Of a stretch of DNA of 64,000 bases, positions 3,775 through 24,896 are shown piece after piece. This DNA is from Halobacteriales archaeon YIM A00010 (GTDB lineage: Archaea > Halobacteriota > Halobacteria > Halobacteriales > Haloarculaceae), in contig JAKCFJ010000002.1 of assembly GCA_025041175.1 (NCBI GenBank), forward strand, positions 372,001 through 436,000, given 5' to 3'. Made by a program: the position numbers and the translations under genes. Positions within the stretch are counted from its first letter, which is position 1. Each line of letters begins with the position of its first letter. The notes beneath the pieces are model-generated. The model was not told the DNA's origin. It did not search any database and was given only the letters and a program-made list of their open reading frames with translations.

Positions 3775-4710
3775 TTACAACCGATCGAGATCGTCGAGGA
3801 TCCGTCGGAGCTGCTCGCGCTCCTCGTGGTCGATCTGCTCTTGGGGCGGCAACACGGTGTCGTACTCGAACACGCCCTGCATCTTCAGCGCTGCCTTCGT
3901 GCGGGCGCGGTAGCGCCCTTCCGGCTCCCCGAAGACGTGGTTGGTCAGCGGGAGCAGCTGCTCACGGATCTCGCGGGCACGCTCCATGTCGTCGTCGTGG
4001 ACAGCTCGGATCTTCTCGACGTGGAGATCAGGAACGAGGTTCGCGTAGCCGATGAGTCCGGTCTCGGCGCCGAGCTGGTAGGCGTGGGTGAGGAACGTGT
4101 CGTTGCCCGTCATGATCGTGCAGTCGTCCCGAAGGTGATCGACCGCGCGGATCGTCCGATCGTAGCGAATCGGGTCGAACGAGGCCTCCTTGAACCCGAT
4201 GACGCGGGGGAGCTTGCAGATTTCGACGTGCGCGCTGATCGGCAGCCCCGGACTTCCCCAGGTCGGGAACTGGAAGTTGATCAGCGGCATGTCGACAGCC
4301 TCACCGACGTGCTCGAAGTGGTTGATCGCCTCCTGTGGGATCTGGTGGGAGTACACGTCGAGCGGGAGCAGCATAACGCCGTCCGCGCCGGCTTCCTTCG
4401 CCGTCCGAGCCAGCTTCGCGGCCTCGATGGAGCTCTCGCCGTAGACGCCGGCGAACACCGGCGTGTCGCCGGCCGCCGCGACGTGGGTCTCGACGACCTG
4501 CCGGTAGGTCTCCTCGTCTTGCATCTTCGTCTCGCCGGTGTGTGCGTTGGCGATGACCGCCGTGATGCCGTCGACGGAAACCAGACGCTCGACGTGACGA
4601 ACGAGATCGTCTTCGACGAGTTCGTAGTCGGGCGTCCACGGGTTCGCGGTCGCGGGGATGATTCCGCCTGCTATCCGTTCTTTGAGTCCTCGGAACTCCT
4701 CTTTCAGCAT
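3775..4710 (-). CDS. DapA/NanA-family dehydratase or aldolase (candidate 5-dehydro-4-deoxyglucarate dehydratase or KDG aldolase)
   Basis: A 311-residue class I (Schiff-base) aldolase-fold enzyme of the DHDPS/N-acetylneuraminate lyase family. Substrate loop NAHTGE (about 55-60) corresponds to the family GTTGE. Schiff-base lysine is K174 in IGFKEAS. The tyrosine that normally precedes NxP in the family is phenylalanine here (FQFP, F146). Biosynthetic DHDPS is unlikely in this setting. Uronate dehydrogenase, an enolase-superfamily dehydratase and an aldehyde dehydrogenase nearby suggest a keto-deoxy-sugar-acid dehydratase giving 2-oxoglutarate semialdehyde; a KDG aldolase is the main alternative. 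ATG 4710 fits a TATA-like CTTTTACT near 4738, with a palindromic operator centred 79 bases upstream. Confidence 0.88.
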   Translation of the reverse strand: MLKEEFRGLKERIAGGIIPATANPWTPDYELVEDDLVRHVERLVSVDGITAVIANAHTGETKMQDEETYRQVVETHVAAAGDTPVFAGVYGESSIEAAKLARTAKEAGADGVMLLPLDVYSHQIPQEAINHFEHVGEAVDMPLINFQFPTWGSPGLPISAHVEICKLPRVIGFKEASFDPIRYDRTIRAVDHLRDDCTIMTGNDTFLTHAYQLGAETGLIGYANLVPDLHVEKIRAVHDDDMERAREIREQLLPLTNHVFGEPEGRYRARTKAALKMQGVFEYDTVLPPQEQIDHEEREQLRRILDDLDRL

Positions 4711-4780
4711 GTTCTATCGAAAGAACACGACTGGCGAGTAAAAGCGTTCTGTTCGGACTGGTGTCACCGTATTCCTCTAT

Positions 4781-4799
4781 CGTTCCCCTTGTGGGAACG
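4781..4799. promoter_or_regulatory. Palindromic operator CGTTCCC-N5-GGGAACG (copy 1)
   Basis: Perfect 7-base inverted repeat CGTTCCC / GGGAACG with spacer CTTGT. Centre is 79-80 bases upstream of the predicted start of the DapA-like transcript. Copies with the same half-sites and spacer are at 5060-5078 and 15927-15943. Likely bound by a dimeric regulator; the IclR protein at 15120-15893 is the best candidate (inference). Confidence 0.7.
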
Positions 4800-5059
4800 A
4801 TTTGACAGCACAGCGTCGTAACTTTACAAACGTACTGCTGTAACTCCTCTGGCTACTGGCGGCTCTTCCCGTCCAAACGGCGAACGACAAAGCGGCTGGC
4901 GAGACGACGAAACGAATCACAGGATTTCCTCCTCGAACACGATTGGCGGTTGCCGGACCGGCGGTGATTCGTTCCCCCCATGCGAACTGACCGATGGCGA
5001 TACGGTGTTCGGTGTTCGTCCCGAGAGATGGCCGGTGTCACTCACTGTTTATCCGATTA

Positions 5060-5078
5060 CGTTCTCTCACTGGGAACG
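5060..5078. promoter_or_regulatory. Palindromic operator CGTTCTC-N5-GGGAACG (copy 2)
   Basis: Same arrangement as 4781-4799 with one mismatch in the left arm and spacer TCACT. Its centre lies about 80 bases before ATG 5149, matching the geometry of copy 1 at the divergent promoter. Confidence 0.68.
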
Positions 5079-5148
5079 GATCGTGTAATTCGTTTTATGA
5101 TAATGGCTGTTCGGATGTTTTATACTGTCGGATACGAATAGGTCGAAT

Positions 5149-6387
5149 ATGGAGATCACCGACGTGAGAGGGTATGCGTTGTCCTCCCCGATCGAACCGG
5201 TACAGGAACGACCGTTCTTCGGTGGCGTGCGACGGCTCCACAAGCGGGATGTGGTGCTCGTTGTGGTGGAGACGAAAAACGGCCGCCGCGGGGTTGCGAC
5301 GGCGGGCGCTTCGAGCTCCGCGATGCGCGAGTACTTCGAGGGCGACTCGCAGGGCACGTTCGCGGACATCGTCGAGACAGCCGTGGCCGACGTGCTCGTG
5401 GGTCGATCGATCGACGAGATCGAAGACGCCCACGAGCTATTGCAGACGATGGAGCTGCCGGTTCACCTCCGAACCGAAGCGATCTCGGCCATCGACGTGG
5501 CGTTGTACGATCTACGCGGGAAGGAACTGGGCGCGCCGATCTACGACCTGCTGGCCGAGGAGTGGGACACCGACCCGACGACCGAACTACCGCTGTACGC
5601 CAGCGCCGGGATGTACATGGATCCGGAGGGATACGTCGAGCAGGCCGCTGTGCTCAAGGAGCTCGGGTTTTTTGGCTACAAGTACCGGCCCGGTATCGGT
5701 CCCGAGGGCGACCGTCGGACGATCGACCTGCTGACCACGGCGGTCGACATGGAGATCATGCTCGACGTCCACACGTGGTGGAAGCTCGGGGAGTCCTACG
5801 GCCGCGACACCGTCCGGTCGCTGGTCGAACACGCCGCTGATCGGGGCGCTTACTGGATCGAGGAACCGGTCGAGCCCGACGACCACGCGGGGTACGTCGA
5901 GCTATCCGAGACCGGCGCGCCGCTGGCCGGTGGTGAGAGCGAGGAGTCGCCGTCGGGTCTGGTCGCCCTCGGCCAAACCGGTGGGGTCGACTTTCTGCAG
6001 GGCGACGTCCGCCATCACGAGGGCTTCACCGGCTGCCGGGCGGCGATTTCATTCTGTGCGGGTCTGGACGTGGAGTTCGTTCCGCACAACTTCGGCACCT
6101 GGCTCGGACTCCAGGCCAATGCGCATCTCGTCGCTGGGGCGCCCGAGGTCCGACTGCTCGAATACCCGGTGTTCGAGAACGATCCGGCGCTTTCTGACGC
6201 GGCGACCGATCCCGGGATGTACCCGTTCGACCTCGCGTTCGACATCATCGAGGGACAGCCGTCAATCGAAAATGGCCGCATGACCGTTTCGGACGCCCCC
6301 GGACTCGGCGTCGAGGTCGACCTCGATGTCGTCGAACAGTATCCGTTCGTCGACGGTCCGTGGACGGAGTTCCAGTACGGGACGTAG
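5149..6387 (+). CDS. Enolase-superfamily (mandelate racemase type) sugar-acid dehydratase or cycloisomerase
   Basis: 412 residues with the N-terminal capping domain and C-terminal barrel of the mandelate racemase/muconate lactonising family. Visible active-site elements: KYR (K178, R180) at the end of barrel strand 2; Mg ligands D206 in MLDVH, the IEEP glutamate at 238-239, and E263 in GGE; GDVR (D286); and catalytic H313 in PHNFG. The D/H dyad indicates the mandelate racemase subgroup. Neighbours make galactarate/galactarolactone, rhamnonate or a related aldonate plausible substrates; motif reading alone cannot separate these. Leaderless ATG, TATA at about 5119-5126, with the shared operator upstream. 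Confidence 0.9.
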   Translation: MEITDVRGYALSSPIEPVQERPFFGGVRRLHKRDVVLVVVETKNGRRGVATAGASSSAMREYFEGDSQGTFADIVETAVADVLVGRSIDEIEDAHELLQTMELPVHLRTEAISAIDVALYDLRGKELGAPIYDLLAEEWDTDPTTELPLYASAGMYMDPEGYVEQAAVLKELGFFGYKYRPGIGPEGDRRTIDLLTTAVDMEIMLDVHTWWKLGESYGRDTVRSLVEHAADRGAYWIEEPVEPDDHAGYVELSETGAPLAGGESEESPSGLVALGQTGGVDFLQGDVRHHEGFTGCRAAISFCAGLDVEFVPHNFGTWLGLQANAHLVAGAPEVRLLEYPVFENDPALSDAATDPGMYPFDLAFDIIEGQPSIENGRMTVSDAPGLGVEVDLDVVEQYPFVDGPWTEFQYGT

Positions 6388-6480
6388 TACCTCGACTCAG
6401 TCCTTCCTCTCGTTTCTCGGTATCGTCTGGATCTCCCGGACGCTGCAATCGGGGGTAGCTTTATCTCGTTGCCGATAGAG

Positions 6481-6942
6481 ATGACAGTTATGCAACGGGG
6501 ACTCGTCGTCATCGACGATACTGACGCACACAGACATCTCCTTGCCGAAGCCGGTTCGTTCGCCCGGAACGGGGACGCCGAACTCGTCGTCCTGGCGTGG
6601 ACGACCCCGAAAGCGGTCGAGGAGAGCAACGACGCGATCGAGTGGGTCGAAGAGATAGAGCGGACCACGTTCGAGGATACCGACGCAACAACCATGACAC
6701 GGGCGTTCGCTCGGGATTTCAGTGACGACGTGCTCGGCGACAGCGACATCGATATCGAGGTGGTCATCACCGACGAGGACGAGCGCGACGACGCGATCCT
6801 TTCGGCAGCCGATCGCCGCGGGTGTGATCACGTGTTTCTCGTCGGCCGGAAGCGGTCGCCGACCGGTAAGGCGATCTTCGGCAACGTTGCCCAGCGCGTC
6901 CTGTTGAACTTCGATGGTCCGGTGACCGTCGTGATGGAGTGA
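6481..6942 (+). CDS. Universal stress protein (UspA) family
   Basis: About 153 residues, single Usp domain. C-terminal nucleotide-loop signature G-R-K-R-S-P-T-G followed by nine residues and a small-residue turn (GRKRSPTGKAIFGNVAQRV), then hydrophobic PVTVVM. The N-terminal strand LVVIDDTD carries the usual acidic residue. ATG 6481 is preferred over a TTG further upstream; ATG 6490 is equally possible, with a TTTATC box near 6460. Not obviously part of the sugar pathway; it sits alone between the dehydratase and the aldehyde dehydrogenase. Confidence 0.85.
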   Translation: MTVMQRGLVVIDDTDAHRHLLAEAGSFARNGDAELVVLAWTTPKAVEESNDAIEWVEEIERTTFEDTDATTMTRAFARDFSDDVLGDSDIDIEVVITDEDERDDAILSAADRRGCDHVFLVGRKRSPTGKAIFGNVAQRVLLNFDGPVTVVME

Positions 6943-6979
6943 CGATGGGGGCAGGGTTTTCGAGCGGCTCGACGATCGA

Positions 6980-8431
6980 TCAGTAGTTCATGTACACCGT
7001 CTTCGTCGAGGTGAAGAAGTCCAGCCCGGCGTCGCCCTGCTCGCGGTAGGTATCCGTCGAGGACTGTTTGTAGCCACCGAAGGGGACGTGTAGTTCGAGA
7101 CCAGTCGTTTTCTCGTTGACTTTCGCCACGCCCGACTCGATGCGCTCGGCGAACCGGTTGGCCTCGGTCAGATCTTGCGTGACGATGCTCGCCGAGAGCC
7201 CGTACTCGACGTCGTTCGCAACGTCGATTCCCTCCTCGAAGCTCCCCACCCGCAACACCGCCAACACTGGGCCGAACACCTCCTCCTGGGCGATGGTCAT
7301 GTCACTGGTCACGCCGGAGAAGACGGTCGGCTCGACGTAGTAGCCATCGTCGTACTCACCGCCAGTGAGCCGCTCACCCCCCGTTTCGAGGGTCGCTCCG
7401 TCGTCGATGGCAACGTCGACGTACTCTAGCGTCGACTCAAGCTCGCTGCTCGTGACGTGGGGTCCCATGTCGGTGTCTTCGAGCCCGGGACCGATCTCGA
7501 TCGCCTCGGCGTATTCGGTGATCCCTGCGACGAAGTCGTCGTACACCTCCTCGTGGACGATCGCCCGCGAGCAGGCGGTACACGCCTGGCCGGTGACGCC
7601 GAACGCACCGGCCCCGACGATGTCGACCGCTTTGTCGATGTCGGCACTGGGCATGACGACCGTCGGGTTCTTGCCGCCCATCTCACACTGGACGCGCTTT
7701 AGGCCGTCGGTGGCGGCTTGTGCAACCGACATCCCGACCGCCGTGCTGCCGGTAAAGGAGACGGCGTCGATGCCCTCGTGTTCGGTGAGGGGTGCCCCGA
7801 TCTCGCTGCCGGAACCGGTGACGTAGTTGACGACGCCGTCGGGCAAGCCCGCCTCCTCGAGCGCCTCGATCAGCTTCCACGTGACGGTCGGCGCCGCGGA
7901 AGCGGGCTTGAGCACCGTCGTGTTGCCGGCCGCCAGCGCGGGTGCGAGCTTCCACGCCGGGATGGCGATGGGGTAGTTCCACGGCGTGATCAACGAGACG
8001 GTGCCCAGCGGCTCGCGCTTGGTGTGCAGCTGTTTGTCAGTGCCGCTGGGCGACTTGACAGCGCCGCCGAGGTCGCGGGCTTTCTCCGCGTAGTAGCCGA
8101 AGATGTCGATCGCACGCTGGACCTCGCCGCCGGCCTCGGTGAGCGTCTTGCCCTCCTCGCGCGTGAGCGTCTCGGTCAGCTCGTCCTTGCGCGATTCGAG
8201 CAGCTGTGCCGTTTCTTTGAGGATCGCTCCCCGTGACGGTCCCGGCGTCGTCGCCCACTCCTCCTGTGCGGCGACTGCGGCTTGGATTGCCGCGTGGGCG
8301 TCCGCGCCCGTCGACGCCTGGAATTTCCCGACGACTTCCCCGGTGTTGGCGGGATTTCGAACCTGAAACGTGTCTCCGGACCGCGATTCGATCCACTCTC
8401 CGTCGACGTAGTTACGGTGTACTGTCGACAT
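6980..8431 (-). CDS. NAD(P)-dependent aldehyde dehydrogenase, candidate 2-oxoglutarate semialdehyde dehydrogenase
   Basis: 483 residues, ALDH superfamily. TPWNYP (N151) binds the oxyanion, FTGST (about 226-230) is the cofactor loop, E250 lies in EMGGKNP and the nucleophile is C284 in GQACTA. Chosen start MSTVHRNYV at 8431; an in-frame start at 8458 is less like the family N-terminus. In the oxidative pentose and uronate routes known in haloarchaea and bacteria an enzyme of this family makes 2-oxoglutarate from its semialdehyde, and that role fits the DapA-like and uronate dehydrogenase neighbours. Succinate-semialdehyde or another aldehyde cannot be ruled out. Confidence 0.92.
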   Translation of the reverse strand: MSTVHRNYVDGEWIESRSGDTFQVRNPANTGEVVGKFQASTGADAHAAIQAAVAAQEEWATTPGPSRGAILKETAQLLESRKDELTETLTREEGKTLTEAGGEVQRAIDIFGYYAEKARDLGGAVKSPSGTDKQLHTKREPLGTVSLITPWNYPIAIPAWKLAPALAAGNTTVLKPASAAPTVTWKLIEALEEAGLPDGVVNYVTGSGSEIGAPLTEHEGIDAVSFTGSTAVGMSVAQAATDGLKRVQCEMGGKNPTVVMPSADIDKAVDIVGAGAFGVTGQACTACSRAIVHEEVYDDFVAGITEYAEAIEIGPGLEDTDMGPHVTSSELESTLEYVDVAIDDGATLETGGERLTGGEYDDGYYVEPTVFSGVTSDMTIAQEEVFGPVLAVLRVGSFEEGIDVANDVEYGLSASIVTQDLTEANRFAERIESGVAKVNEKTTGLELHVPFGGYKQSSTDTYREQGDAGLDFFTSTKTVYMNY

Positions 8432-8555
8432 TCGAATAATGGTTTTGCGCTTCCTCACACGAACGTTCGTCTTCCGGCAATACTAGCGGCAGAAAGATCG
8501 ACAGCAAGCGGTTTGGCCACGCACGGATAGATCGGCTGTCGATACAAATCTCAGT

Positions 8556-8578
8556 TCCCCGCTGATCCGCGGGAACCC
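8556..8578. promoter_or_regulatory. Inverted repeat GTTCCCCGC / GCGGGAAC
   Basis: GTTCCC and GGGAAC half-sites as in the 4781 operator, but separated by eleven bases rather than five. It lies between the aldehyde dehydrogenase start (8431) and the small membrane protein gene (8615), just upstream of the TATA box of the latter. May be a variant site of the same regulon or a coincidence. Confidence 0.35.
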
Positions 8579-8614
8579 CAATCGATTTATACAACGGTGA
8601 GTAACTGCGTGGTA

Positions 8615-8854
8615 ATGGGTTCCACACGAAACGCGGCAGAGCCGACTCGTCTTCGAGAGACAGTGATCGATCCCATCAGCGACTCCGTTCTGTTGAAACT
8701 GGCAACGGCGGGTATGTTGCTGTTCGTCTCCGGTTGGTTTCTGGATGTGGGATTCAACGAGGGCGTCTGGGCGGCGATGTTCGGTGCCTGGGGTGTTGGG
8801 CTGATGCTCGTCGGGCTGAGCTGTTATGGATTCATCTGGTGGCGACGGCACTAA
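8615..8854 (+). CDS. Small two-helix membrane protein, unknown function
   Basis: 79 residues. An N-terminal polar segment is followed by two hydrophobic helices (roughly residues 28-45 and 50-72) ending in a WWRRH cap. I do not recognise the family. ATG 8615 is chosen over an upstream GTG because a TTTATAC box at 8586-8592 sits 25 bases before it. The stop overlaps the stop of the convergent gene at 8851 by four bases. Confidence 0.6.
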   Translation: MGSTRNAAEPTRLRETVIDPISDSVLLKLATAGMLLFVSGWFLDVGFNEGVWAAMFGAWGVGLMLVGLSCYGFIWWRRH

Positions 8855-9288
8855 CCGTCCCAGGCGGTGAGCTGTGAGACGCCCTGCTCGTTTGGCTGCC
8901 GCTGGAGGGAGAGCCCCGACAGCTTCCGGATCGTCACCTCGCCCAGAACGTTGATCTCACAGCCCGGTTCCAGGTGGCCGCCGACGGTCCGCTCGCCGTC
9001 GAACGCGGTCACGTGGAGGTGTGGCTCGCCGTCCGCGACGACCCCGTTGATGTCGGTGACTTCCCACGCGCCCGTTAGCTCGAGGTCGACGTTGCGATCG
9101 GCCCGGTCGGGTAGATCCGTCCGATCGACGTAGTGGATATTCAGCGTGCTGAACGTTCCGATGCCGGTGACGACGGCACCGGTGTCGACGTCGTGCTCCG
9201 TACAGGCGCGTTCGATCGATTCCAGCGCCATGTCGCCGCGATCGAGACGGACGATCACGTGTCCGTCGTCGGATTCGAACGATTCCAT
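8851..9288 (-). CDS. PPC/DUF296-domain protein (archaeal stand-alone PCC protein)
   Basis: 145 residues matching the plant and prokaryote conserved (PPC, DUF296) domain: an early LDRGDMALESIE segment, then VVTGIGTFS, the HLHVT strand, and GGHLEPGCEINVLGEV near the end. In plants this domain is attached to AT-hook proteins; stand-alone prokaryotic copies are small trimeric proteins of unclear role. ATG 9288 is used because residues encoded further upstream are low-complexity and unlike the family. It lies 46 bases after the Gfo/Idh gene on the same strand, probably co-transcribed. Confidence 0.8.
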   Translation of the reverse strand: MESFESDDGHVIVRLDRGDMALESIERACTEHDVDTGAVVTGIGTFSTLNIHYVDRTDLPDRADRNVDLELTGAWEVTDINGVVADGEPHLHVTAFDGERTVGGHLEPGCEINVLGEVTIRKLSGLSLQRQPNEQGVSQLTAWDG

Positions 9289-9334
9289 CGTATGCTCCCG
9301 TGGACCGGCCGCAGAATAAAGCTTGTTGTGGCAG

Positions 9335-10372
9335 TCAGTCGGGGCTGTCCTCGGGCAGCGCATACCGCCCGGTGAGATCGACCCGTTCGCCGGTGCGGCC
9401 CGACTCGTAGGCCGCCATCGTGACGAGCGTCGTCTCGAACGCGTCCCGGACCGTGATGGGCGGCTGTGTCCCCTCGCGGACCGACTCGGTGAACGCGTGG
9501 GCTTTGGTCTGTCGCCCGTGGTAATCGAGCGACGGGTGGTGTTCGGTGCTCTCGGCGTCGATCGTGTAGCCGGTGCGTTCTTTCCAGTCGCGGCCCTCGA
9601 GGTAGACGGCACCGTTGTCGTCCCAGATGTGGATGTGTTCGCGGGTACACGCCACTACGCCTGTGTCCGAGACGCTGGCGACCGCGCCGTTGTCGAACTC
9701 GATGGTGATCGACGACTGGGTGTCGAACACCTGCTCCTCGTCGTGGAAGACGACGGTGGCGTCGACGCCGGTCGGTTCGAGTCCTGTTACCCAGAGGATC
9801 GCGTCGATGACGTGGGAGCCGACGTTCAGGAGGTGGCCACCGCCGCTCAGCTGTGGATCCATCCGCCAGTCGTCCATGGTTTCGTAGTACGAACGCCAGT
9901 CGTGGGTAATCTCACCGGTGATGAACGTCGGATCGGCGTCGCCCGCCGCCCACCGCTCGTGGGCCTCGATGAACGCGGGGTTCAGGTGTCGCTGGTAGCC
10001 CACCATCACTACTTGGTCGGTCCGCTGGTCGCGCCGGTAGAGGTCGCGGGCGTCCTCGACGTTCGTCGCCAGGGGTTTCTCACACAGCACGTGGAGATCC
10101 CGATCGAGCGCCGCGACCGTCTGGTCGTAGTGGAGTCCGTTGGGCGTGGCGATCGCCACCGCGTCGAGCGCGGCCGCGTCGAGCATCGTCTCGTAGCCGG
10201 TGTGGCCGGTCACGTCGTCGAATTCCTGGGCTGCCTCGGTCACGTTCTCCTCGTTGATATCGGCCACTGCGACCAGTTCGGCGTCCGACACGCTCTCGAA
10301 CTGACGGCCGAGGCGGATGCCGAGGCTTCCGAGTCCGACGAGTCCGACGCGCAGATCGTGTGATTTGTCCAT
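9335..10372 (-). CDS. Gfo/Idh/MocA-family NAD(P)-dependent sugar dehydrogenase
   Basis: 345 residues. N-terminal Rossmann fold with VGLVGLGSLG, the CEKPLA motif of the family (the lysine lies at the catalytic site) and a C-terminal alpha/beta domain with GGGHLLNVGSHVID. Oxidises or epimerises a sugar, sugar acid or inositol-like substrate; in this locus galactose, galacturonate or rhamnose are candidates. ATG 10372 is preferred to ATG 10387 because the TTATAG box at 10401-10406 predicts a transcription start near 10377. Confidence 0.88.
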   Translation of the reverse strand: MDKSHDLRVGLVGLGSLGIRLGRQFESVSDAELVAVADINEENVTEAAQEFDDVTGHTGYETMLDAAALDAVAIATPNGLHYDQTVAALDRDLHVLCEKPLATNVEDARDLYRRDQRTDQVVMVGYQRHLNPAFIEAHERWAAGDADPTFITGEITHDWRSYYETMDDWRMDPQLSGGGHLLNVGSHVIDAILWVTGLEPTGVDATVVFHDEEQVFDTQSSITIEFDNGAVASVSDTGVVACTREHIHIWDDNGAVYLEGRDWKERTGYTIDAESTEHHPSLDYHGRQTKAHAFTESVREGTQPPITVRDAFETTLVTMAAYESGRTGERVDLTGRYALPEDSPD

Positions 10373-10441
10373 GTCGTGATCACGCATACATGCAAATCAC
10401 CTATAATTGTTTTGCTCGATCAGCTCTCGATCCGGGATGTC

Positions 10442-11983
10442 TCACGAGTGTTCGATCGTCGCGTCGCTGTCGGGAGCCACCTCGACAGCGTCGGCCAACG
10501 AGCCGTGAGACCCTGCCGTCGAGATAGTGTGCGTGTCGGGTCCGTGCGCCAGCAAGAACAGCCCTTCTTCCGGAGCACAGCCCCGAACGCGGGTCGTCGC
10601 AACGTCGCGCAACGAGACGACGGGAGCGTCCGCCGCGTCGGACACCAGCCCGTCGATCGTCACGCGGTCGGTCTCCTCGAACCGCAGTGCTGGGCCGTCG
10701 GCCGTCCGGATCCGCACGTCACGAAAGGAAACGTCGGCGATCGACTTACAGAACAGCCCGTGGACCTGCTCGTAGCCGTCGGCCATCGCGGGAGCGAGAT
10801 CCGTCGCGTCGAGATCGCGGGTGGCGTCGATCCGGACATCGGAAAAGGAGATGCCCTCGAAACGCTGCTCGGGCAGTCCGGCGAGGAAGCCGGCCGTCTC
10901 GACGTTGCGGGCAGTGATCGAGGTGAACGACACGTTCCGCACCATCGGCGTCCCCGCGTCCACTGGCTGGGGATCGCTGTCCAGCGGGGTGAAGTAGTAG
11001 CCGTTGATGACGAACGGACACGCAACCCGTCGCATGACGATGGTGTCGAACCGGAGATCCTCGACCACGCCCCCGCGGTCTCGCTGGGTCTTGATCCGCA
11101 CGCCGCGATCGGTGTCCGTGAACGTGCAGTTCGTGACCGTCACGTCCCGAACGTCACCGGACATCTCGCTGCCGATGACGACGCCACCGTGGCCGGACTC
11201 GACGGTGCAGTTCGTGACGGTGATCCCCGAGGCCGGCTCGTCGATCGCACGGCCCTCTTCGTTCTTTCCGGACTTGATACAGATCGCGTCGTCGCCCGCG
11301 TTGATGTGCGTGTCGCTGATCCGAACGGACCGCGAGGAGTCGATGTCGATCCCGTCGCCGTTGGGCGCGTCGGCCGGGTTCTCGATGGTGGCGTCGTGGA
11401 TCGTGACGTTCTCGGAGTAGACGACGTGGGTGTTCCAGAACGGCGAGTTCCGCAGCGTCACACCCGAAATGCTGACGTTTTCCGACTCTGAGACCTGGCA
11501 CAGCGGGGGCCGGTGGGTGAAGCTGCTGACGTCGTCCGTCTTCTCGTTTCGGCGCTCGAACTCGGCCAGCCGGTCCTGTAGTCCCTCGGGACGTTCGGCG
11601 GTGGACTGGTCGTAGAACGACCACCAGTACGCGCCGTTGCCGTCGATCGTTCCCCGGCCGGTGATCGTGACGTTCTCGGCGTTGTCGACGAACAGACAGG
11701 GGTGAAAACCGGCTTGCTCCCAGCCTTCCCAGCGGCTCCGGACCGTCGGAAACGCGTCGTAGTCGCCGACAAAGCGCAGCGTTGCCCCCGGAGCCAGGCG
11801 CAGCGTCGTGTGGTCACCGACCCGGAGCGGACCGGTCGTATACGTGCCCGGGGGCACGTACACCGTCCCGCCCGCCCCAGCACACGCATCGAGCGCCGCT
11901 CGAATCGCGTCCGTGTCGGGATCGTCCGTACCACTCGCGCCGTACTCGCGGATGTCGAATCGGCTCGTCTCAGGCGCTGTCAT
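10442..11983 (-). CDS. GH28 polygalacturonase, apparently cytoplasmic
   Basis: 513 residues. Glycoside hydrolase family 28 beta-helix with the hallmark motifs in order: NGDGID (about 208-213), GDDAI (D231, D232), GHGG (H265) and RIKT (296-299). These give the three catalytic aspartates, the histidine and the RIK subsite motif, so the enzyme should be active. The start MTAPETSRFDIREYG has no signal peptide, which suggests an intracellular exo-type enzyme acting on imported oligogalacturonides. A CTTATC box at about 12009-12014 lies 25 bases upstream of ATG 11983; longer reading frames are therefore rejected. Divergent from the PL1 lyase gene at 12100. Confidence 0.93.
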   Translation of the reverse strand: MTAPETSRFDIREYGASGTDDPDTDAIRAALDACAGAGGTVYVPPGTYTTGPLRVGDHTTLRLAPGATLRFVGDYDAFPTVRSRWEGWEQAGFHPCLFVDNAENVTITGRGTIDGNGAYWWSFYDQSTAERPEGLQDRLAEFERRNEKTDDVSSFTHRPPLCQVSESENVSISGVTLRNSPFWNTHVVYSENVTIHDATIENPADAPNGDGIDIDSSRSVRISDTHINAGDDAICIKSGKNEEGRAIDEPASGITVTNCTVESGHGGVVIGSEMSGDVRDVTVTNCTFTDTDRGVRIKTQRDRGGVVEDLRFDTIVMRRVACPFVINGYYFTPLDSDPQPVDAGTPMVRNVSFTSITARNVETAGFLAGLPEQRFEGISFSDVRIDATRDLDATDLAPAMADGYEQVHGLFCKSIADVSFRDVRIRTADGPALRFEETDRVTIDGLVSDAADAPVVSLRDVATTRVRGCAPEEGLFLLAHGPDTHTISTAGSHGSLADAVEVAPDSDATIEHS

Positions 11984-12099
11984 CGTCCGGGTATTTCGTG
12001 GGGCAAAGATAAGCGTGTCGCCGTCCCCGAACGTATCGGGCACGTTTCGTGGAAACACTTATCAATGAGCATGATAACACCAAAGACGGCACACAACCG
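11984..12099. promoter_or_regulatory. Divergent promoter of GH28 and PL1 genes
   Basis: 116 bases between two pectin genes. TATA-like boxes occur at about 12009-12014 (leftward) and about 12058-12062 (rightward). A short palindrome GTTTC-GTG-GAAAC at 12044-12056 sits between them and could bind a common regulator. Confidence 0.55.
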
Positions 12100-14199
12100 A
12101 TGAGATTCGACAGACGTTCATTCCTTCGAGCGATCGGAGCGGGAACTGTTGCCACAGTCGCGCCGACGGCGTTCGGCGGCGCGGCCACGGCGGCGACGGT
12201 CATCACGATCCGCGGCGGCGGCGCCGACATCTGGAACACGGAAGACGCCTTCCACTTCTACTACGAGACGGTGGAGGGTGACTTCGACGTCCGGGTGCAC
12301 AACACGGCGCTCGAAAACACGGATCCCAACGCGAAGACCGGCATCATGATCCGGGAGTCGCTGGATCCCGGGGCGAAGAACGTGATGCTCCGGCGAACAC
12401 CGAACGGTGCGGTCTCCTTGCAGTGGCGGCCCGAGTCCGGTGGGGAGACGGTCAGCACGACGTCGGGCGGCGAAGACGAGAGCGAGGTCGACGGCGGGAG
12501 CATCGACGCGGAGTGGCTGCGCCTCTCTCGGCGCGGCGGCGCGTTCGAAGCGTACGGTTCGGACGACGGGACGGACTGGACGCAAATCGCGCGCCTCGAC
12601 GCGGTCGAACTGAGCGACGCTGCCGCTGTCGGTCTTCCGATCACGAGCCACAACGTCGGCGTGCGCTGTACGGCCCAGCTGCGGGATCTCTCCGGCATCG
12701 ATCCGGACGCCAACCGGGACGTCGGCGACGTCTCAGTAGCGGGGAGCGTCGGCGTCGAGGAGGGTGTTCCTTTCGTCACTACTGGTGGAGCGTCCGACGT
12801 GACGGCCACAGAGGCGACGCTACGCGGCAGACTGACCGACCTGGGCGGGGCCGACTCGGCCGAATGCTCCGTCGAATACCGGCAAGTGCCGACCGAAGCG
12901 TGGACAGCGACGCCCGCGCGGACCCTCACGGAGCCAGAGGCGTTCGACGTTCGTCTCAAGGATCTCACGAGCAGGCGGTACTACGAGTACCGCGCGGTCG
13001 TCGAGACGAGCGACGGCAACCGCGCGGTCGGCTCCTCGGAAACGGTCGGAACGCCCAGCCGGTCGAACGGTACTCCCCCTGCGAACGGTCCGGAAAGCGC
13101 ATCGCGCGTGGATCTCGCCGATGGGTTCGCCGACCCGGCTCCGTGGTTGGACGACGATACGCCCGTGATCCCGGTGACCGAGCCGACGCGGCGTCAGCTG
13201 ACGGCCGCGATCGGCGTCGACGGGCCGCGGCTGGTCGTTTTCGAAACCAGCGGCACCGTCGATCTCGAGCAACAACGCCTGACGATTGTCAACGACGAGC
13301 TGTATCTCGCCGGCCAGACCGCTCCGTCGCCGGGCATCACGCTCGTCCGGGGGGATCTCTGGATCGGCGCCGACGACTGTGTGGTCCAACACCTCCGTGT
13401 TCGTCCGGGCGACGCTGGCTTGACGGAGGAAAGCGACTGGGAGCCCGACGGGATCAGGACCGGAGACGGCACCGAAAACAACGTCGTCGATCACTGTACG
13501 TCGACCTGGGCGGTCGACGAGAACCTCTCGGTCGGGTACGACACCCACAACACCACCGTGTCGAACTGCCTGGTCGCCGAACCGCTCCAGGACGCCACCC
13601 ACCACAAGGGCGATCACGGCTACGGCTCGCTGATCGGCAACGGGGCCGAGAACGTCACGCTCGCGGGCAACGTCTGGGCACACAACTACGACCGGAATCC
13701 GCGGCTCAAGGAGGGAACCCGCACCGTCGTGGCGAACAACGTTATCTACCACTACAACGACGGTATCTGGATGGATCCGGACACGGCGGCGAGCATCGAG
13801 AGCAACGTCTTCCGACGACCAGTCAGCAACCAGCCCAACGTCTTCGGGGACGGGGCGGCCGTGCTCGCGGACAACGCGCTCGAAAACGCCGCCAATCCGA
13901 TGGTCGGCGACGGGATTACCCGACTCGACGCCCGACCGCTGTGGCCGCCGGATCTCGAAGCGATCGGATCGGACACCGTCGTCGAACACGACCTCGCGAA
14001 CGCCGGCGCGCGGCCGGCCGACCGGACCGCTCACGACGAGCGCGTGCTCCAGCAGCTCCGCACGGGCGAGGGATCGTACATCGACGGCCAGGTGGAGGTC
14101 GGCGGCTACCCCGATCTCGATGTCGTCACCCACGGACTGTCCGTCCCTCAAAGCGGCACGCGAGCCTGGCTCCGCGCGAAGGCGCGCACCGTCGAATAA
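12100..14199 (+). CDS. Tat-exported multidomain PL1-type pectate lyase
   Basis: 699 residues. Signal MRFDRRSFLRAIGAG has a twin-arginine motif and an Ala-rich cleavage region. Residues about 33-215 form a DUF1349/concanavalin-like beta domain (GIMIRESLDPGAKN, DGTDWTQIA, VGLPITSHN). Residues about 230-325 look like a fibronectin type III domain (TATEATLRGRL). Residues about 340-699 are a right-handed beta-helix pectate lyase: VVFETSGTVDL, AGQTAPSPGI, VVDHCTSTWAVDE, and NPRLK with the conserved catalytic arginine. The same lyase domain occurs in the gene at 17418. Expected to cleave polygalacturonan outside the cell by calcium-dependent beta-elimination. Confidence 0.92.
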   Translation: MRFDRRSFLRAIGAGTVATVAPTAFGGAATAATVITIRGGGADIWNTEDAFHFYYETVEGDFDVRVHNTALENTDPNAKTGIMIRESLDPGAKNVMLRRTPNGAVSLQWRPESGGETVSTTSGGEDESEVDGGSIDAEWLRLSRRGGAFEAYGSDDGTDWTQIARLDAVELSDAAAVGLPITSHNVGVRCTAQLRDLSGIDPDANRDVGDVSVAGSVGVEEGVPFVTTGGASDVTATEATLRGRLTDLGGADSAECSVEYRQVPTEAWTATPARTLTEPEAFDVRLKDLTSRRYYEYRAVVETSDGNRAVGSSETVGTPSRSNGTPPANGPESASRVDLADGFADPAPWLDDDTPVIPVTEPTRRQLTAAIGVDGPRLVVFETSGTVDLEQQRLTIVNDELYLAGQTAPSPGITLVRGDLWIGADDCVVQHLRVRPGDAGLTEESDWEPDGIRTGDGTENNVVDHCTSTWAVDENLSVGYDTHNTTVSNCLVAEPLQDATHHKGDHGYGSLIGNGAENVTLAGNVWAHNYDRNPRLKEGTRTVVANNVIYHYNDGIWMDPDTAASIESNVFRRPVSNQPNVFGDGAAVLADNALENAANPMVGDGITRLDARPLWPPDLEAIGSDTVVEHDLANAGARPADRTAHDERVLQQLRTGEGSYIDGQVEVGGYPDLDVVTHGLSVPQSGTRAWLRAKARTVE

Positions 14200-14213
14200 A
14201 CCGAGAGCGACGC

Positions 14214-15053
14214 TCACTCGGGCGGACCGTCCCACTGCTCGCCGTCGTCCTGTGGCTCGTAGCCGATCCGGCTCCGTGCGTGTTCGATATCGAACCACCG
14301 ACGCCGGTTGTCGCTGACGCCGTAGAAGGTCCCGTACTCGACCGATGTATCCCGGAGACAGCAGTCCACTTGGTGGGCGAAGTCCCGCCGTGATTGCCAG
14401 ATCGCCTTCATCCGCGCGACCGTCCGGTCGTACTCGTCGCTGTCCCGTTCGAACGAACCGTCCTCGACTCCCTGTTCGGCGTTGCCGTACGGATGATCGT
14501 ACGGCCCCATGTTGACCGCCCCCACCCGAAGCGCGTAAAACTGCCGCGGATACTCGTGGTTTTCGACGTAGTAGCGCCCGAGCGCCTCGCCGAAGCATTT
14601 CGAGACGCCGTACAACGAATCCGGTCGGACCGGATCGGTGTGGTCGACGGTGAGATCGAACCCCGTGGTGTAGATCTCCGGGGCGAACTCCGTCTCGTAC
14701 ATCCCGACAGCGTGGTTCGAGGAGATGAACACGAACGAGTCGAGTCGTTTCGTTCGGGCCGCCTCCAGCGCGTTGTACATACCGATGACGTTCGGTTCGA
14801 ACACGTCGTTCCACGCCCCGTCAGTGAACGGGTAGGCCGCCATGTGAACCATCGCGTCCTGCCCGTCCGCCGCCGACACGAGCGCGTCGCGGTCGGCTAC
14901 GTCGGCCACGATCGTGTCGTACCCGCCGTACGGATGATCCTCCGGCCGATCCGATCGGTTGAGATGCGTGAAGTCGTACCCCACGCCGTCGTGGAGGTGG
15001 TCGATAACGGCGGTTCCACAGCGACCGTACGCTCCGGTCATCAACACGTCCAT
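14214..15053 (-). CDS. udh: Uronate dehydrogenase (NAD-dependent, extended SDR)
   Basis: 279 residues. Glycine-rich TGAYGRCG at 6-13, SSNHAVG (S111, S112), and YGVSK with catalytic Y148 and K152 in the longer string LYGVSKCFGE. The SSNH, LYGVSKCFGE and YGVSDN motifs closely resemble bacterial uronate dehydrogenases as I remember them, more than general UDP-sugar epimerases. Converts D-galacturonate (or glucuronate) to the aldarolactone with NAD, the first step of the oxidative route. TTTAATAG at about 15075-15082 places a leaderless start at ATG 15053. Convergent with the PL1 gene, and downstream of the IclR gene. Confidence 0.87.
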   Translation of the reverse strand: MDVLMTGAYGRCGTAVIDHLHDGVGYDFTHLNRSDRPEDHPYGGYDTIVADVADRDALVSAADGQDAMVHMAAYPFTDGAWNDVFEPNVIGMYNALEAARTKRLDSFVFISSNHAVGMYETEFAPEIYTTGFDLTVDHTDPVRPDSLYGVSKCFGEALGRYYVENHEYPRQFYALRVGAVNMGPYDHPYGNAEQGVEDGSFERDSDEYDRTVARMKAIWQSRRDFAHQVDCCLRDTSVEYGTFYGVSDNRRRWFDIEHARSRIGYEPQDDGEQWDGPPE

Positions 15054-15119: not shown

Positions 15120-15893
15120 TCACGAGAACTTGGTGTTGAGTTCGATGACGTTCGCGGCTCGCTTGACGTGAGCGGAAAATTCCTCGTGGATGCGCTCGTC
15201 GGTGAACCGGCTCGACGGACCGGTGACGCTGATGGCCCCTAACACCGTCTCGCCGCGCTTGACCGGTGCGGAGACACACCGCAACCCCTCGATATTCTCC
15301 TCGTCGTCGATCCCGTACCCGCGCTCTGCGATAACGTCGAGCTCCTCGTACAACTCCTCAGGACCCGTGATCGTCCGCGGCGTGAAGCCCGTGTACTCCA
15401 TCGACTCGACAATCTCCTCCGTTCGGGAAGCGGGCGTGTACGCCAGTATCGTCTTGCCGAGCGACGTCGAGTACATCGGCTGCTGGATGCCCACGCGCGA
15501 GCGCGTCTCGACCGCCTGCTCCCCGGTCGATTTATAAAGATAGCTGATCATTCCGTGCTCTTCGATGGCGAACTGGGCGATCTCCCCGGTCTCATCGGCG
15601 AGTTTGTCGACTTCACTCGAGATGACGTCGTAGTTGCCGATCTGTTCACGAACGCTGTTCGCCATGTCGAGAATCCGAAGGCTCAGCCGGTAGCCCTCGG
15701 GTTCTTGCACCAGGATGTTGCGCTCGGTGAGCGTCTGGAGGTGGCTGTAAATCGTGCTTTTCGAGTGACCGAGCTCCTCGGCCAGCTCCGTCACACCGAC
15801 GGTGTCCCGTTCCTGGAGCACCTCGATGATGTTGAACGCGATCGTCACCGACCGGATCGTTCGCCCCGGATGGTCGTTTTTCCGTACCGTCAT
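15120..15893 (-). CDS. IclR-family transcriptional regulator
   Basis: 257 residues. N-terminal winged HTH (about 14-65) with VTELAEELGHSKSTIYSHLQTL, then the IclR effector domain (LGKTILAYTP, GLRCVSAPV, GAISVTGPSSR). ATG 15893 is preferred over 15905 because the TATATAG box near 15917-15923 predicts that start. A GTTCCC-N5-GGGAAG site at 15927-15943 abuts the TATA box, suggesting autoregulation, and the same motif precedes the two sugar-acid genes near 5 kb. Haloarchaeal IclR proteins are known to control sugar catabolism, for example xylose/arabinose, so it probably senses a uronate-derived intermediate. Confidence 0.9.
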   Translation of the reverse strand: MTVRKNDHPGRTIRSVTIAFNIIEVLQERDTVGVTELAEELGHSKSTIYSHLQTLTERNILVQEPEGYRLSLRILDMANSVREQIGNYDVISSEVDKLADETGEIAQFAIEEHGMISYLYKSTGEQAVETRSRVGIQQPMYSTSLGKTILAYTPASRTEEIVESMEYTGFTPRTITGPEELYEELDVIAERGYGIDDEENIEGLRCVSAPVKRGETVLGAISVTGPSSRFTDERIHEEFSAHVKRAANVIELNTKFS

Positions 15894-15926
15894 GCTCTCC
15901 CACATGTACTCTATCTATATAATGTT

Positions 15927-15943
15927 GTTCCCGTCTGGGGAAG
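15927..15943. promoter_or_regulatory. Operator GTTCCC-N5-GGGAAG (copy 3) between IclR and LLM oxidoreductase genes
   Basis: Half-sites and five-base spacer (GTCTG) match the copies at 4781 and 5060. Centre is 42 bases before the predicted IclR transcript start, and about 78-84 bases before the rightward gene at 16019, so one site could repress the regulator and activate the oxidoreductase. Confidence 0.65.
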
Positions 15944-16018: not shown

Positions 16019-17005
16019 ATGAAGTTCGGCTTCTTTCCGATCGAAGGTGGCGACGCCTGGGACGGCGTCGTCGAACAGTGCCGATTGGCCGAGGAACTCG
16101 GGTTTGAGGCGTGCTGGGTCAACGACCACCAGGCGACGGAGGGTGACAACTACTGGCCGTCCCCGCTGGTTCGCCTGACGAGCATTGCCGAGGGCACCGA
16201 GTCGCTCGAGCTGGTCACCTCGGTGCTCATCCTCCCGCTGTACCATCCGTTGCACGTCGCCCAGGAGGCGGCGATGGTGGACAACATCTCGAACGGCCGG
16301 CTCACGCTCGGGGTCGGGCTCGGCTACGTGGAAAAGGAGTTCGACGCGTTCGGCGTTCCGATGTCCGAGCGTGCCGGACGGATGATCGAGGGGCTGCAGT
16401 TTCTCGACGAGTTCCTCGCTGCCGAGGAGCCGATCAGCTTTTCGTGTCCGTTCTTCGAGGTCGATGACTGGCAACCACTTCCACAGACCGCCCAGGAGCC
16501 GCGGCCGACGCTGTGGGTCGGCGGCTGGGGCGACAAACAGCTCGCCCGGTCGGTGTCGTTCAGCGACGCGTGGGTGCCCGGCGTGGTCGCCGACCTCGAG
16601 GCGGTCGAACAGCGCAAGGACAAACAACGCGAGCGGGTGGCCGACGCCGACCAAGAGTGGGACTCGATGGATCATCCTCTGATGCGCGAGGCCGTCATCG
16701 GTGAAACCGAAGCCGACGTGATGGAGCGAAAGGAGTATCTCCACCGCACGTACCGCGACGAGTACGGGGGCGAGTTCTCCCACCCGCTGATGAGCGCCGA
16801 TTCGGTCGAGGAGTTCTCCGAACTCGCCGACGATCGGTTCATCTACGGCACGCCCGAGCAGATCATCGAGCAGATTGAGGCGATCCAGGACCGCTTTGCG
16901 CTGAACCAGCTCGCGCTGCGCTTTCACCACTCGGGGATGCCCCCGCAACTGGTCGAAGACCAACTGCGACTGTTCGGAGAAGAGGTCATCCCTGCGTTCG
17001 ACTGA
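16019..17005 (+). CDS. Luciferase-like (LLM-class) flavin- or F420-dependent oxidoreductase
   Basis: 328 residues with the bacterial-luciferase TIM barrel: MKFGFFP start, VTSVLILPLYHPLHVAQEAAMVDNISNGRLTLGVGLGY (the nonprolyl-cis region and phosphate-binding GRLTLGVG), and LWVGGWGDKQLARS. Haloarchaea have both FMN and F420, and the cofactor cannot be fixed by eye. Divergently transcribed from the IclR gene and flanked by pectin genes, so it may oxidise a sugar-derived compound; the substrate is unknown. Confidence 0.88.
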   Translation: MKFGFFPIEGGDAWDGVVEQCRLAEELGFEACWVNDHQATEGDNYWPSPLVRLTSIAEGTESLELVTSVLILPLYHPLHVAQEAAMVDNISNGRLTLGVGLGYVEKEFDAFGVPMSERAGRMIEGLQFLDEFLAAEEPISFSCPFFEVDDWQPLPQTAQEPRPTLWVGGWGDKQLARSVSFSDAWVPGVVADLEAVEQRKDKQRERVADADQEWDSMDHPLMREAVIGETEADVMERKEYLHRTYRDEYGGEFSHPLMSADSVEEFSELADDRFIYGTPEQIIEQIEAIQDRFALNQLALRFHHSGMPPQLVEDQLRLFGEEVIPAFD

Positions 17006-17417
17006 TCGATCACCCTCGTGTCCATCGAATGCGTTCCCGGTAGGCGAACGATCGGTCGGTCGTCGCCGTCCGGTCGCGGCTTCGAACACCGAAATCACCG
17101 TCCGAGCACGGCAGACGGACGCTGTGGCGGATCGATCCGTTTGTTCGTAGCGAATCAGACGACGAACAGCGGTAGAACGACTCTACCCCGAATATCACGC
17201 GAGCGGAGAGGAAGATGTGAACCGATTCCCGCGAGCAGTCGCCGATAGCCACTGAAACCGTTACGATAGTACGTCTGTAATCGTTCGGTAAGTGGGAATC
17301 TGGAGTCGAACGTCCAGTTGGGCGTTCAACCGACACACCACGTTTTCTGTACAATAGTAATATAAACTAGGATAAATTTATTGTCTATGTTGTATTTTAC
17401 CATAGTGGTGTCTATTC
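17006..17417. other. Intergenic region upstream of the second PL1 lyase
   Basis: Roughly 410 bases without a credible gene. The first 250 bases are GC-rich. The last 80 are very A/T-rich with several TATA-like runs (for example around 17360-17395) serving the gene at 17418. An imperfect inverted repeat AACGTCC / GGGCGTT lies at 17309-17326. Confidence 0.6.
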
Positions 17418-19127
17418 ATGACACACGACAGACGCACGTTTTTGCGTGCGATCGCAGCCGGGAGTATTGCAAGCACCGTGCTCGGTGGGACTGCCACGGG
17501 GACAACGCCCGCCGAGGGCGGTGAAACGTTCGATCGATCGTCCTTCCACGGCGGCGACGGCTTCGCCACGATGGGGCCGTGGCTCGAGGACGGAGTCGAC
17601 GTGTACACGATCACGGAACCGACGCGGGAGGCCGTCGAAGCAGCGTTCACCGCGAGCGGTTCGCGCGTGGTCGTTTTCGAGACCAGCGGCACCATCGATC
17701 TGGGCAACGAGAGGTTGGCGATTACGGAGGATAACTGTTGGGTAGCGGGGCAGACCGCACCCTCGCCGGGAATCACCTTCATCAAGGGGATGGTGCAGGT
17801 GGATGCCGACAACTGCGTCGTCCAGCACGTTCGGTCGCGGATCGGTCCGGGTGACGGGTCGATCCAGAGTAACGACGCGATCAACACCCAGGACGACACC
17901 CAGAACAACGTGCTCGACCACGTGACGGCCTCGTGGGGCGTCGACGAGTGTCTCTCGGTGGGGTACGACACCCAGGACACGACCGTCACCAACTGCCTCG
18001 CTTACGAGGGACTGTGGGATCCCTACGGCGACGGCGCCGACCACAACTACGGCACGCTCATCGGTGACGGCGCGTCGAACGTCACGTTCGCTGGCAACGT
18101 CTGGGCCAAGATACGCGGTCGCGTGCCGCGGCTCAAAAGCGACACCGAGACCGTTATCGTCAACAATCTCGCGTACTTCTTCGACGAATCGGCTAACATC
18201 GACAGTTCGGCGGTCACCAGCTTCGTCGGCAACGGCTACACGGGGCTGACCGACACCGGCGACCAGATCCTCGAAGGAAGCCCGACGGCGTACTACACGG
18301 ACAACTACACCGCCGACCCGCCGCTCGAGGACACCGACTTCGCCGGCACCGACAGCGAGAGCTCGCCACCGCTGTGGCCGAGCGGTCTCAGCGAGATCCC
18401 CGCCGGCGATGTCGAGAGCCACAACCTCGCAACCGCCGGCGCACGACCGGCCGACCGCACCGACAACGACCAGCGAATCGTCAGCGAGATCGCCAATCGC
18501 GCCGGTAACGACCGCCTCGACAATCCCTACGACTACTGGGTTGGCCACCACGACGAGGTCGGCGGCTATCCCGCGCTCTCTGAGAACACCCACTCCCTCT
18601 CTGTGCCCGACAGCGGGCTTCGTGAGTGGCTCGAAGGATGGGCACAAGCCGTCGAAGAGGGCGGCTCGCCGCCCGACAACGGTGGCAACGGTGGTCCGAT
18701 CTCGACGGGGACCTACGAGATCGTAAACGTCAACAGCGGTCAGTTGCTTGAGGTCGCCAACGCCTCGACAGAGGACGGCGCGAACGTCCAACAGTGGCCC
18801 GCGAACGGGCACTCGACACAGCAATGGTACGTCGAAGAGGTCGCCGACGGCGAGTACCGACTGGTGAACGAAAACAGTGGTCAGTTGCTCGAGGTCGCCA
18901 ACGCCTCGACGGAGGACGGCACGAACGTTCGCCAATACTCGGACACCGGCTGCAGCTGCCAGCGTTGGTATATAAACGACGAGGAGGATGGCGTGTACAC
19001 GCTCGAGGCCGTTCACAGCAACAAGCTCGCCGATGTCGAGGGAACCTCGACAGAGGACGGCGCGAACGTCCTCCAGTGGCCAGACACCGGTAGCGGAAAC
19101 CAGCGATGGACGTTCGAATCGATGTGA
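17418..19127 (+). CDS. Tat-exported PL1-type pectate lyase with C-terminal ricin-type (CBM13) lectin domain
   Basis: 569 residues. MTHDRRTFLRAIAAG is a twin-arginine signal. The catalytic beta-helix (about 35-425) shares VVFETSGTIDL, AGQTAPSPGI, LDHVTASWGVDE and VPRLK (catalytic Arg) with the lyase at 12100, but lacks that protein's DUF1349 and FnIII domains. A Gly/Asn-rich linker (SPPDNGGNGG) leads to a beta-trefoil from about 431 to the end: three repeats each with a GQLLEV- or NKLADV-type strand and a QRW/QQW motif, typical of family 13 carbohydrate binding. Probably an extracellular polygalacturonan lyase held on its substrate by the lectin. Confidence 0.93.
   Translation: MTHDRRTFLRAIAAGSIASTVLGGTATGTTPAEGGETFDRSSFHGGDGFATMGPWLEDGVDVYTITEPTREAVEAAFTASGSRVVVFETSGTIDLGNERLAITEDNCWVAGQTAPSPGITFIKGMVQVDADNCVVQHVRSRIGPGDGSIQSNDAINTQDDTQNNVLDHVTASWGVDECLSVGYDTQDTTVTNCLAYEGLWDPYGDGADHNYGTLIGDGASNVTFAGNVWAKIRGRVPRLKSDTETVIVNNLAYFFDESANIDSSAVTSFVGNGYTGLTDTGDQILEGSPTAYYTDNYTADPPLEDTDFAGTDSESSPPLWPSGLSEIPAGDVESHNLATAGARPADRTDNDQRIVSEIANRAGNDRLDNPYDYWVGHHDEVGGYPALSENTHSLSVPDSGLREWLEGWAQAVEEGGSPPDNGGNGGPISTGTYEIVNVNSGQLLEVANASTEDGANVQQWPANGHSTQQWYVEEVADGEYRLVNENSGQLLEVANASTEDGTNVRQYSDTGCSCQRWYINDEEDGVYTLEAVHSNKLADVEGTSTEDGANVLQWPDTGSGNQRWTFESM
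18738..18920 (+). repeat. Internal DNA repeat in the ricin domain
   Basis: The 42-base segments 18738-18779 and 18879-18920 differ at only two or three positions, encoding the repeated GQLLEVANASTEDG strand. A shorter related unit follows near 19030-19065. This points to recent duplication of trefoil units. Confidence 0.7.
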
Positions 19128-22767: not shown

Positions 22768-22791
22768 CGTCGATCACCCGTCGCAGTACTC

Positions 22792-22892
22792 ATACTGTCG
22801 GACAGAGGTGATTGACTATCGGATGCTGATGAACCGCTAGACAGCAGCTGGATGGTCCGTCGGAATCCGTCCGTGGCTCTGTCCGACAGTAT
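22792..22892 (-). mobile_element. MITE-like element copy A (101 bp)
   Basis: Perfect 16-base terminal inverted repeats ATACTGTCGGACAGAG / CTCTGTCCGACAGTAT around about 69 bases with no coding capacity. Same family as 39081-39181 (complementary orientation) and 52603-52696. It lies inside the transporter operon, and its last base is part of the permease stop codon. No clear target duplication is visible. Confidence 0.85.
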
Positions 22893-24893: not shown

Positions 24894-24896
24894 GTG

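Follow-up and report, generated by a model that had tools for sequence, protein, structure and literature searches.

Oxidation of hexuronates to 2-oxoglutarate is a class of pathway known from bacteria, and the closest described system is that of Agrobacterium tumefaciens, which employs Udh, Gli, Gci, KdgD and a KGSA dehydrogenase (PMC6353982). We found no archaeal oxidative galacturonate route described in the searchable literature, which is not proof of absence, and a predicted galacturonate degradation has been mentioned for Halomicroarcula, the genes not being given (PMC8600319). According to recent work, use of pectin or other uronate polysaccharides has not been demonstrated for any haloarchaeon, and the pectinase-bearing haloarchaea tested so far displayed no or marginal growth on pectin or galacturonate (PMC9726719, PMC12343721); Sorokin and co-workers likewise state that haloarchaeal growth on uronate polysaccharides is yet to be demonstrated. 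The stretch of DNA analysed here (henceforth the window) comprises 64,000 nucleotides, positions 372001-436000 of C2, a 1.02-Mb replicon of a haloarchaeal genome (G000) of 5.97 Mb in seven contigs. We consider it likely that most of a haloarchaeal pectin/galacturonate island, with an oxidative, non-phosphorylated route to 2-oxoglutarate as its core, lies within the window. The route would be a new, archaeal variant of the known bacterial pathway. It shares with the A. tumefaciens pathway the enzyme classes and the end product, and includes an enolase-superfamily protein 40% identical to Gci (ENO2), a DapA-family protein that scores best against KdgD models (DapB) and a KGSA dehydrogenase (KGSADH). 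It differs in being archaeal, in drawing its short-chain dehydrogenase (SDR) from a separate haloarchaeal group, in having an extra enolase (ENO1), in that DapB and ENO2 score below equivalog cut-offs, and in that the dyad Asp of Gci is Asn in ENO2.

The first-pass annotation of the window had proposed that four genes between 3775 and 15053 encode a complete oxidative galacturonate route. All four open reading frames were found (3775-4710, 6980-8458 and 14214-15053 on the minus strand, 5149-6387 on the plus strand), and Pfam and NCBIfam searches placed their products in the proposed enzyme families far beyond chance, namely DHDPS (4.6e-36) for 3775, MR_MLE (1.7e-39) for 5149, Aldedh (1.8e-172) for 6980 and Epimerase (2.8e-17) together with the NCBIfam model Azf (2.1e-55) for 14214. 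The strands of the four alternate, so they do not form one operon, and the genes of the island as a whole occupy both strands. Since a GH28 protein, two pectate-lyase-like proteins, an IclR-family regulator, a Gfo/Idh oxidoreductase, a PCC-domain protein and a UspA-like protein are encoded around them, the context is clearly one of pectin. The features concerned, in window coordinates, are:

3775-4710, minus strand: DapA-family accessory enzyme, probably not KdgD (TIGR03249 score, Phe146, rarity)
5149-6387, plus strand: ENO1, enolase-superfamily (MR group) enzyme, conserved, metal ligands and His-Asp kept
6469-6942, plus strand: UspA-like protein, island-conserved (PF00582, 3.9e-15), located after ENO1/ENO2 in relatives
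6980-8458, minus strand: KGSADH, 2,5-dioxovalerate (2-oxoglutarate semialdehyde) dehydrogenase, putative last step
8851-9303, minus strand: PCC-domain protein, island-conserved (PF03479, 2.9e-20; 51-88% in relatives)
9335-10387, minus strand: Gfo/Idh oxidoreductase, island-conserved, rival candidate for the first oxidation (PF01408, 1.3e-25)
10442-12058, minus strand: GH28 polygalacturonase-family protein (PF00295, 7e-47; PglA model, 269 of 600 bits)
12049-14199, plus strand: PL1a, pectate-lyase-like protein (NF041900 PelZ, 239 of 840 bits; no Pfam match at 1e-5)
14214-15053, minus strand: SDR, candidate uronate dehydrogenase for step 1 (fold match, Azf model score, clade, context)
17418-19127, plus strand: PL1b, second pectate-lyase-like protein, with a C-terminal ricin-B lectin domain (PF14200, 1.7e-39, for the lectin part)
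40471-41889, minus strand: GH4 glycosidase (PF02056, 1.2e-48)

PL1b co-occurs in the loci of relatives, and six Haloferax loci have the Gfo/Idh gene adjacent to DapB and ENO1. The GH4 family takes in alpha-galacturonidases and alpha-galactosidases; related GH4 genes, assigned to the family by eye, occur in the island of genome G193 and in one Haloferax locus. The window also encodes a luciferase-like monooxygenase (16019-17005, plus strand) that is 73-91% conserved in several islands and, near the island, an ABC transporter of the oligopeptide type that has a binding protein of its own (20694-26714, minus strand; family by eye), for which uptake of oligogalacturonides is plausible.

The first step would fall to SDR 14214, whose label as a uronate dehydrogenase is plausible but unproven. 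Chains of uronate dehydrogenases take ranks 1-5 among the solved structures matched by its predicted model (Z 26.2-27.4), ahead of all others; as an Azf structure is absent among these matches, the ranking does not discriminate against Azf. Its nearest sequence model in NCBIfam is in fact that of haloarchaeal Azf (NF041293), reached with 187.8 bits against a cut-off of 400. With Azf (PMC8506132) the window protein shares close relationship and the SDR catalytic residues (S111, Y148 and K152, all invariant), and its Arg214 is in register with an anion-binding Arg that Azf also has. It differs from Azf in its island context, in lacking the NLTX2H and YERG motifs and in a conserved insertion of ~20 residues in the NLTX2H loop, which fits the beta6-alpha10 loop insertion of the uncharacterised ‘group 2’ of the same study (PMC8506132). 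In an unrooted tree the bacterial Udh proteins sit on a branch of 2.13, and the window SDR belongs to a haloarchaeal clade distinct from Azf. This supported clade has 24 rows, and those sampled members whose context is known adjoin island genes, which favours, without proving, a uronate substrate; relatives further away in the wider group occupy unrelated genomic places. Scores against PDB sequences did not separate the three SDR paralogues of this genome (Azf 105, window SDR 91 and a copy on C4 76 bits). On sequence grounds we place SDR 14214 in a haloarchaeal group that is uncharacterised and neighbours the glucose-6-phosphate dehydrogenase Azf.

That the SDR is instead an Azf-like sugar-phosphate dehydrogenase, the first oxidation of the uronate being carried out by Gfo/Idh 9335, is in our view unlikely. 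Besides the Azf model score, this reading has in its favour that the His of the NLTX2H loop is kept as DHP in the alignment and that in Haloferax loci it is the Gfo/Idh gene, not the SDR gene, that adjoins ENO1. However, the genome encodes a separate, true Azf that scores 456 bits and so exceeds the cut-off of 400, in several islands the SDR occurs and Gfo/Idh does not, and the Haloferax genomes in question encode the SDR, at 71-72%, in another place, which in one examined case adjoins DapB and KGSADH. Replacement of the SDR by Gfo/Idh as a general rule, considered in view of the Haloferax loci with no SDR near ENO1, was rejected on account of these SDR copies elsewhere.

For the second step of the oxidative route, the family proposed for the 5149 product stands, but ENO1 is not the nearest match to Gci. 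It aligns to Agrobacterium Gci (4ggb) with 82.6 bits and 31.4% identity over the aligned part, whereas ENO2 is 40.4% identical to the same protein (E 7.9e-70). In the window genome ENO2 is absent from the gap after ENO1 and is found at C2:325736-326872, 45 kb upstream and outside the window. K164 and K166 (the KxK motif), D194, E220 and E246 (metal ligands) and H296 (the catalytic His) of ENO2 are invariant in 24 sequences, and Asn269 replaces the dyad Asp of Gci (QPD, the partner of the catalytic His) in all 24. ENO1 retains the metal ligands and the His-Asp pair, and has K178-Y179-R180 in place of the KxK of the MR group, as do its relatives displayed in the alignment. Close relatives of ENO1 occur in 35 haloarchaeal loci (47-82% identity), in many of which ENO2, DapB, the UspA-like gene and the SDR are neighbours. 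Judged by these residues and matches, ENO1 is probably an acid-sugar or lactone dehydratase/cycloisomerase.

The gene set is strongly conserved. Among 195 genomes of the order, with presence scored at the thresholds used, the SDR was found in 51, DapB in 36, ENO1 in 25, ENO2 in 17 and the 3775-type DapA in 3. DapB was present in 23 of the 25 genomes with ENO1 versus 13 of the 170 others (p=1e-18), the SDR in 21 of the 25 versus 30 of the 170 (p=9e-11), both p values ignoring shared ancestry, and all 17 genomes with ENO2 had DapB. In nine genomes the SDR, ENO1, ENO2 and DapB lie within 12 kb. Lactonase genes were observed in two relatives: in G070 (C8:92001-103000) an IclR gene, KGSADH, DapB, the SDR and a beta-propeller lactonase stand in a row beside uxaC, which suggests a lactonase variant of the route, and a Natrialba island (L042, 16573-17637, minus strand) contains a PF10282 lactonase that is absent between the PCC and Gfo/Idh genes of the window.

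The third step had been ascribed to the 3775 protein as the keto-deoxy-aldarate dehydratase, and this is probably wrong. The KdgD model TIGR03249 gives it 71.8 bits, well short of the cut-off of 373.95, and the KdgD structure 4ur7 is not among its best 60 PDB matches. The Schiff-base residue Lys174 is kept, but Phe146, invariant in seven orthologues, stands where the DapA fold, KdgD included, has its catalytic Tyr; the predicted structure is poor (pLDDT 58.8). DapB, encoded at C2:366343-367281, 8.5 kb from the 3775 gene and outside the window, is the better candidate. The KdgD-type models TIGR03249 (127.2 of 373.95 bits) and NF002958 (150.8 of 278) are its two best NCBIfam families, yet both scores are below cut-off; 4ur7 is its third PDB match, and alignment with this structure shows the Schiff-base Lys and Tyr-x-Arg to be kept. 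Moreover, all the examined genomes with a 3775-type gene (this one, G193, G013 and five named genomes) also encode DapB, either next to that gene or in another place. Being rare and always accompanied by DapB, the 3775 protein is an extra and not a general KdgD, and its features mark it as a putative accessory of the island. Replacement of DapB by the 3775 protein in Natrialba was considered and rejected, DapB being present there at 79%.

Two of the four steps have their best candidates (ENO2 and DapB) outside the window, so the proposal of a route complete within 3775-15053 is unsupported. We regard as quite unlikely the version in which the window genes alone suffice, ENO1 acting as the galactarate or lactone dehydratase and the 3775 protein as KdgD. 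The 3775 gene and ENO1 are divergent neighbours with three copies of a palindrome (described below) between them, loci of Natrialba, Halocatena and Halostagnicola retain both, and the conserved Lys174 is also in keeping with this version. Against it stand the KdgD scores, the loss of the Tyr, the unfailing company of DapB and a 3775 type found in 3 of 195 genomes when ENO1 is found in 25.

The palindrome, GTTCCC-N5-GGGAAC, came from a gapped-palindrome scan of upstream regions of the island; a k-mer scan for common upstream words gave nothing above shuffles. Its copies and the candidate regulator in the window are:

4782-4798, no strand: palindrome GTTCCCCTTGTGGGAAC, between the divergent DapA and ENO1 genes, 0 mismatches
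4971-4987, no strand: palindrome copy, DapA/ENO1 intergenic, 1 mismatch
5061-5077, no strand: palindrome copy, ~80 bp before ENO1, 1 mismatch
15120-15905, minus strand: IclR1, IclR-family protein, putative regulator of the island (BhcR 148.7 and KdgR 143.1 bits, both below cut-off)
15927-15943, no strand: palindrome copy in the interval from IclR1 to the luciferase-like gene, 1 mismatch
17033-17049, no strand: palindrome copy upstream of the pectate-lyase-like gene 17418, 1 mismatch

At up to 1 mismatch the window contains 6 matches versus 0.25 expected, and none of 100 shuffles reached 6. In the loci of relatives (816 kb) a spacer of 5 gave 84 matches, and each other spacer from 0 to 12 gave one to seven. 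On the whole of C2 the preference for this spacer is weak (11 matches versus 3-9), so that the signal there lies in position and not in number: eight of the 11 are intergenic and adjoin ENO2, DapB, DapA/ENO1 (three), IclR1, PL1b and a distant pair of pectate-lyase-like genes. Four of these eight come from the regions that suggested the motif, and the other four constitute an independent test. The copies by ENO2 and DapB sit at the 3' ends of the genes, not at promoters, and in 9 of 11 relative loci a copy is centred 27-42 bp ahead of the start of the IclR1 orthologue. At 17 bp the palindrome fits the operator type of group 1 IclR regulators (GKTYC...GRAMC, 17-18 bp, near the regulator's genes), for which the consensus GKTYCRYW3-4RYGRAMC has been given (PMC8222616). 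As with KdgR, the gamma-proteobacterial pectin regulator of the IclR family, an IclR-family protein is encoded beside pectin genes with a palindromic site, but the site is of group 1 type and not a KdgR box, and the KdgR model score is 143 of 275 bits. A second palindrome, TTACA-N10-TGTAA, was also seen, with 44 sites on C2 at up to 1 mismatch (e.g. at 4824 and 17261 of the window) and 24 perfect copies at spacer 10 versus at most 1 at other spacers; it is broader than the island and is possibly the site of another sugar regulator.

The first-pass annotation had also reported that the enzymes of the reductive route were not seen. For UxaC this applies to the window but not to the genome, which encodes it elsewhere. 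A full-length UxaC (C3:351605-352948; L097 8602-9966, plus strand; 531 bits, cut-off 387) lies beside a D-mannonate oxidoreductase-like SDR (361 bits, cut-off 281), and on C2 a GH67 alpha-glucuronidase and a UxuA-like gene (about 934610-937775; L102 8610-11775, plus strand) precede a UxaC fragment interrupted by an in-frame TGA (C2:937820-938092); this is probably a glucuronoxylan locus in which one UxaC copy has decayed. These genes lend some support to galacturonate being used mainly by a reductive isomerase route encoded elsewhere, with the island serving another purpose, but we consider this very unlikely: GH67 and the mannonate enzymes make them look like a glucuronate branch, and the GTTCCC-N5-GGGAAC palindrome was not found at them. 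Furthermore, a test of 14 island genomes showed UxaC to be absent from 9, including three Natrialba and two Haloferax, and for these the oxidative route is the evident candidate. We are similarly doubtful of a merged pectin route differing from that of bacteria, in which ENO1 would be a D-galacturonate dehydratase forming 5-keto-4-deoxy-galacturonate (also the pectate-lyase product), the SDR or Gfo/Idh would oxidise this in one step to 5-keto-4-deoxy-glucarate for DapB, the lactone being bypassed, and the 3775 protein would act on a lyase-derived side product.

The last step would fall to the 6980 protein, whose start at 8431 (MSTVHRNY...) is likelier than that at 8458. It scores 852.2 bits against the curated NF052305 model for haloarchaeal 2,5-dioxovalerate dehydrogenase (cut-off 750), which bears out its proposed place in the route. 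The genome has three genes of this kind. The window KGSADH is 69-87% identical to most copies in the islands of relatives (two are at 63-64%) and 62.5% identical to the paralogue of the xylan locus (C2:890852), the latter in a separate comparison because that row was left out of the KGSADH tree; this difference argues for a uronate rather than a pentose role. The third 2,5-dioxovalerate dehydrogenase (L032, C4:261001-281000) was seen beside another Azf-like SDR and near genes resembling, by eye, 6-phosphogluconate dehydrogenase and ribose-5-phosphate isomerase. An oxidative pentose route for arabinose or xylose from pectin side chains (an enolase-type pentonate dehydratase, a DapA-type keto-deoxy-pentonate dehydratase and 2-oxoglutarate semialdehyde dehydrogenase) would use the same enzyme classes and share the aldehyde dehydrogenase family, but is highly improbable given these identities, the conserved GH28 and pectate lyase neighbours (in G070 uxaC and a lactonase), the Gci-like ENO2 and the xylan locus, in which the palindrome was not found at up to 1 mismatch.

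Overall, the oxidative galacturonate route to 2-oxoglutarate is well supported by its pectinase context, a KGSADH above cut-off and the conserved gene set, although two of the genes first assigned to it are probably the wrong ones and none of the SDR, ENO1, ENO2 and DapB reaches a curated equivalog cut-off. From the identities of the genes, their conservation and clustering and the shared motif, all of which are direct observations, we infer the substrates, activities and reaction order as follows. Extracellular GH28 and pectate lyases would free galacturonate from pectin; SDR 14214 would oxidise it at C1 to galactarolactone; ENO2, ENO1 or both would convert the lactone or the aldarate to 3-deoxy-2-keto-hexarate; the KdgD-like DapB would dehydrate and decarboxylate this to 2-oxoglutarate semialdehyde; and KGSADH 6980 would yield 2-oxoglutarate. 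IclR1 probably governs the gene set through the candidate GTTCCC-N5-GGGAAC sites.

Pectinase genes are frequent in haloarchaeal genomes. The SDR, ENO1, ENO2, DapB and KGSADH, together with the palindrome, provide a gene-level hypothesis on galacturonate use (whether it takes place, by which steps and under which inducer), one that extends to the genetically tractable Haloferax, and the uncharacterised sister group of Azf thereby gains a testable function.
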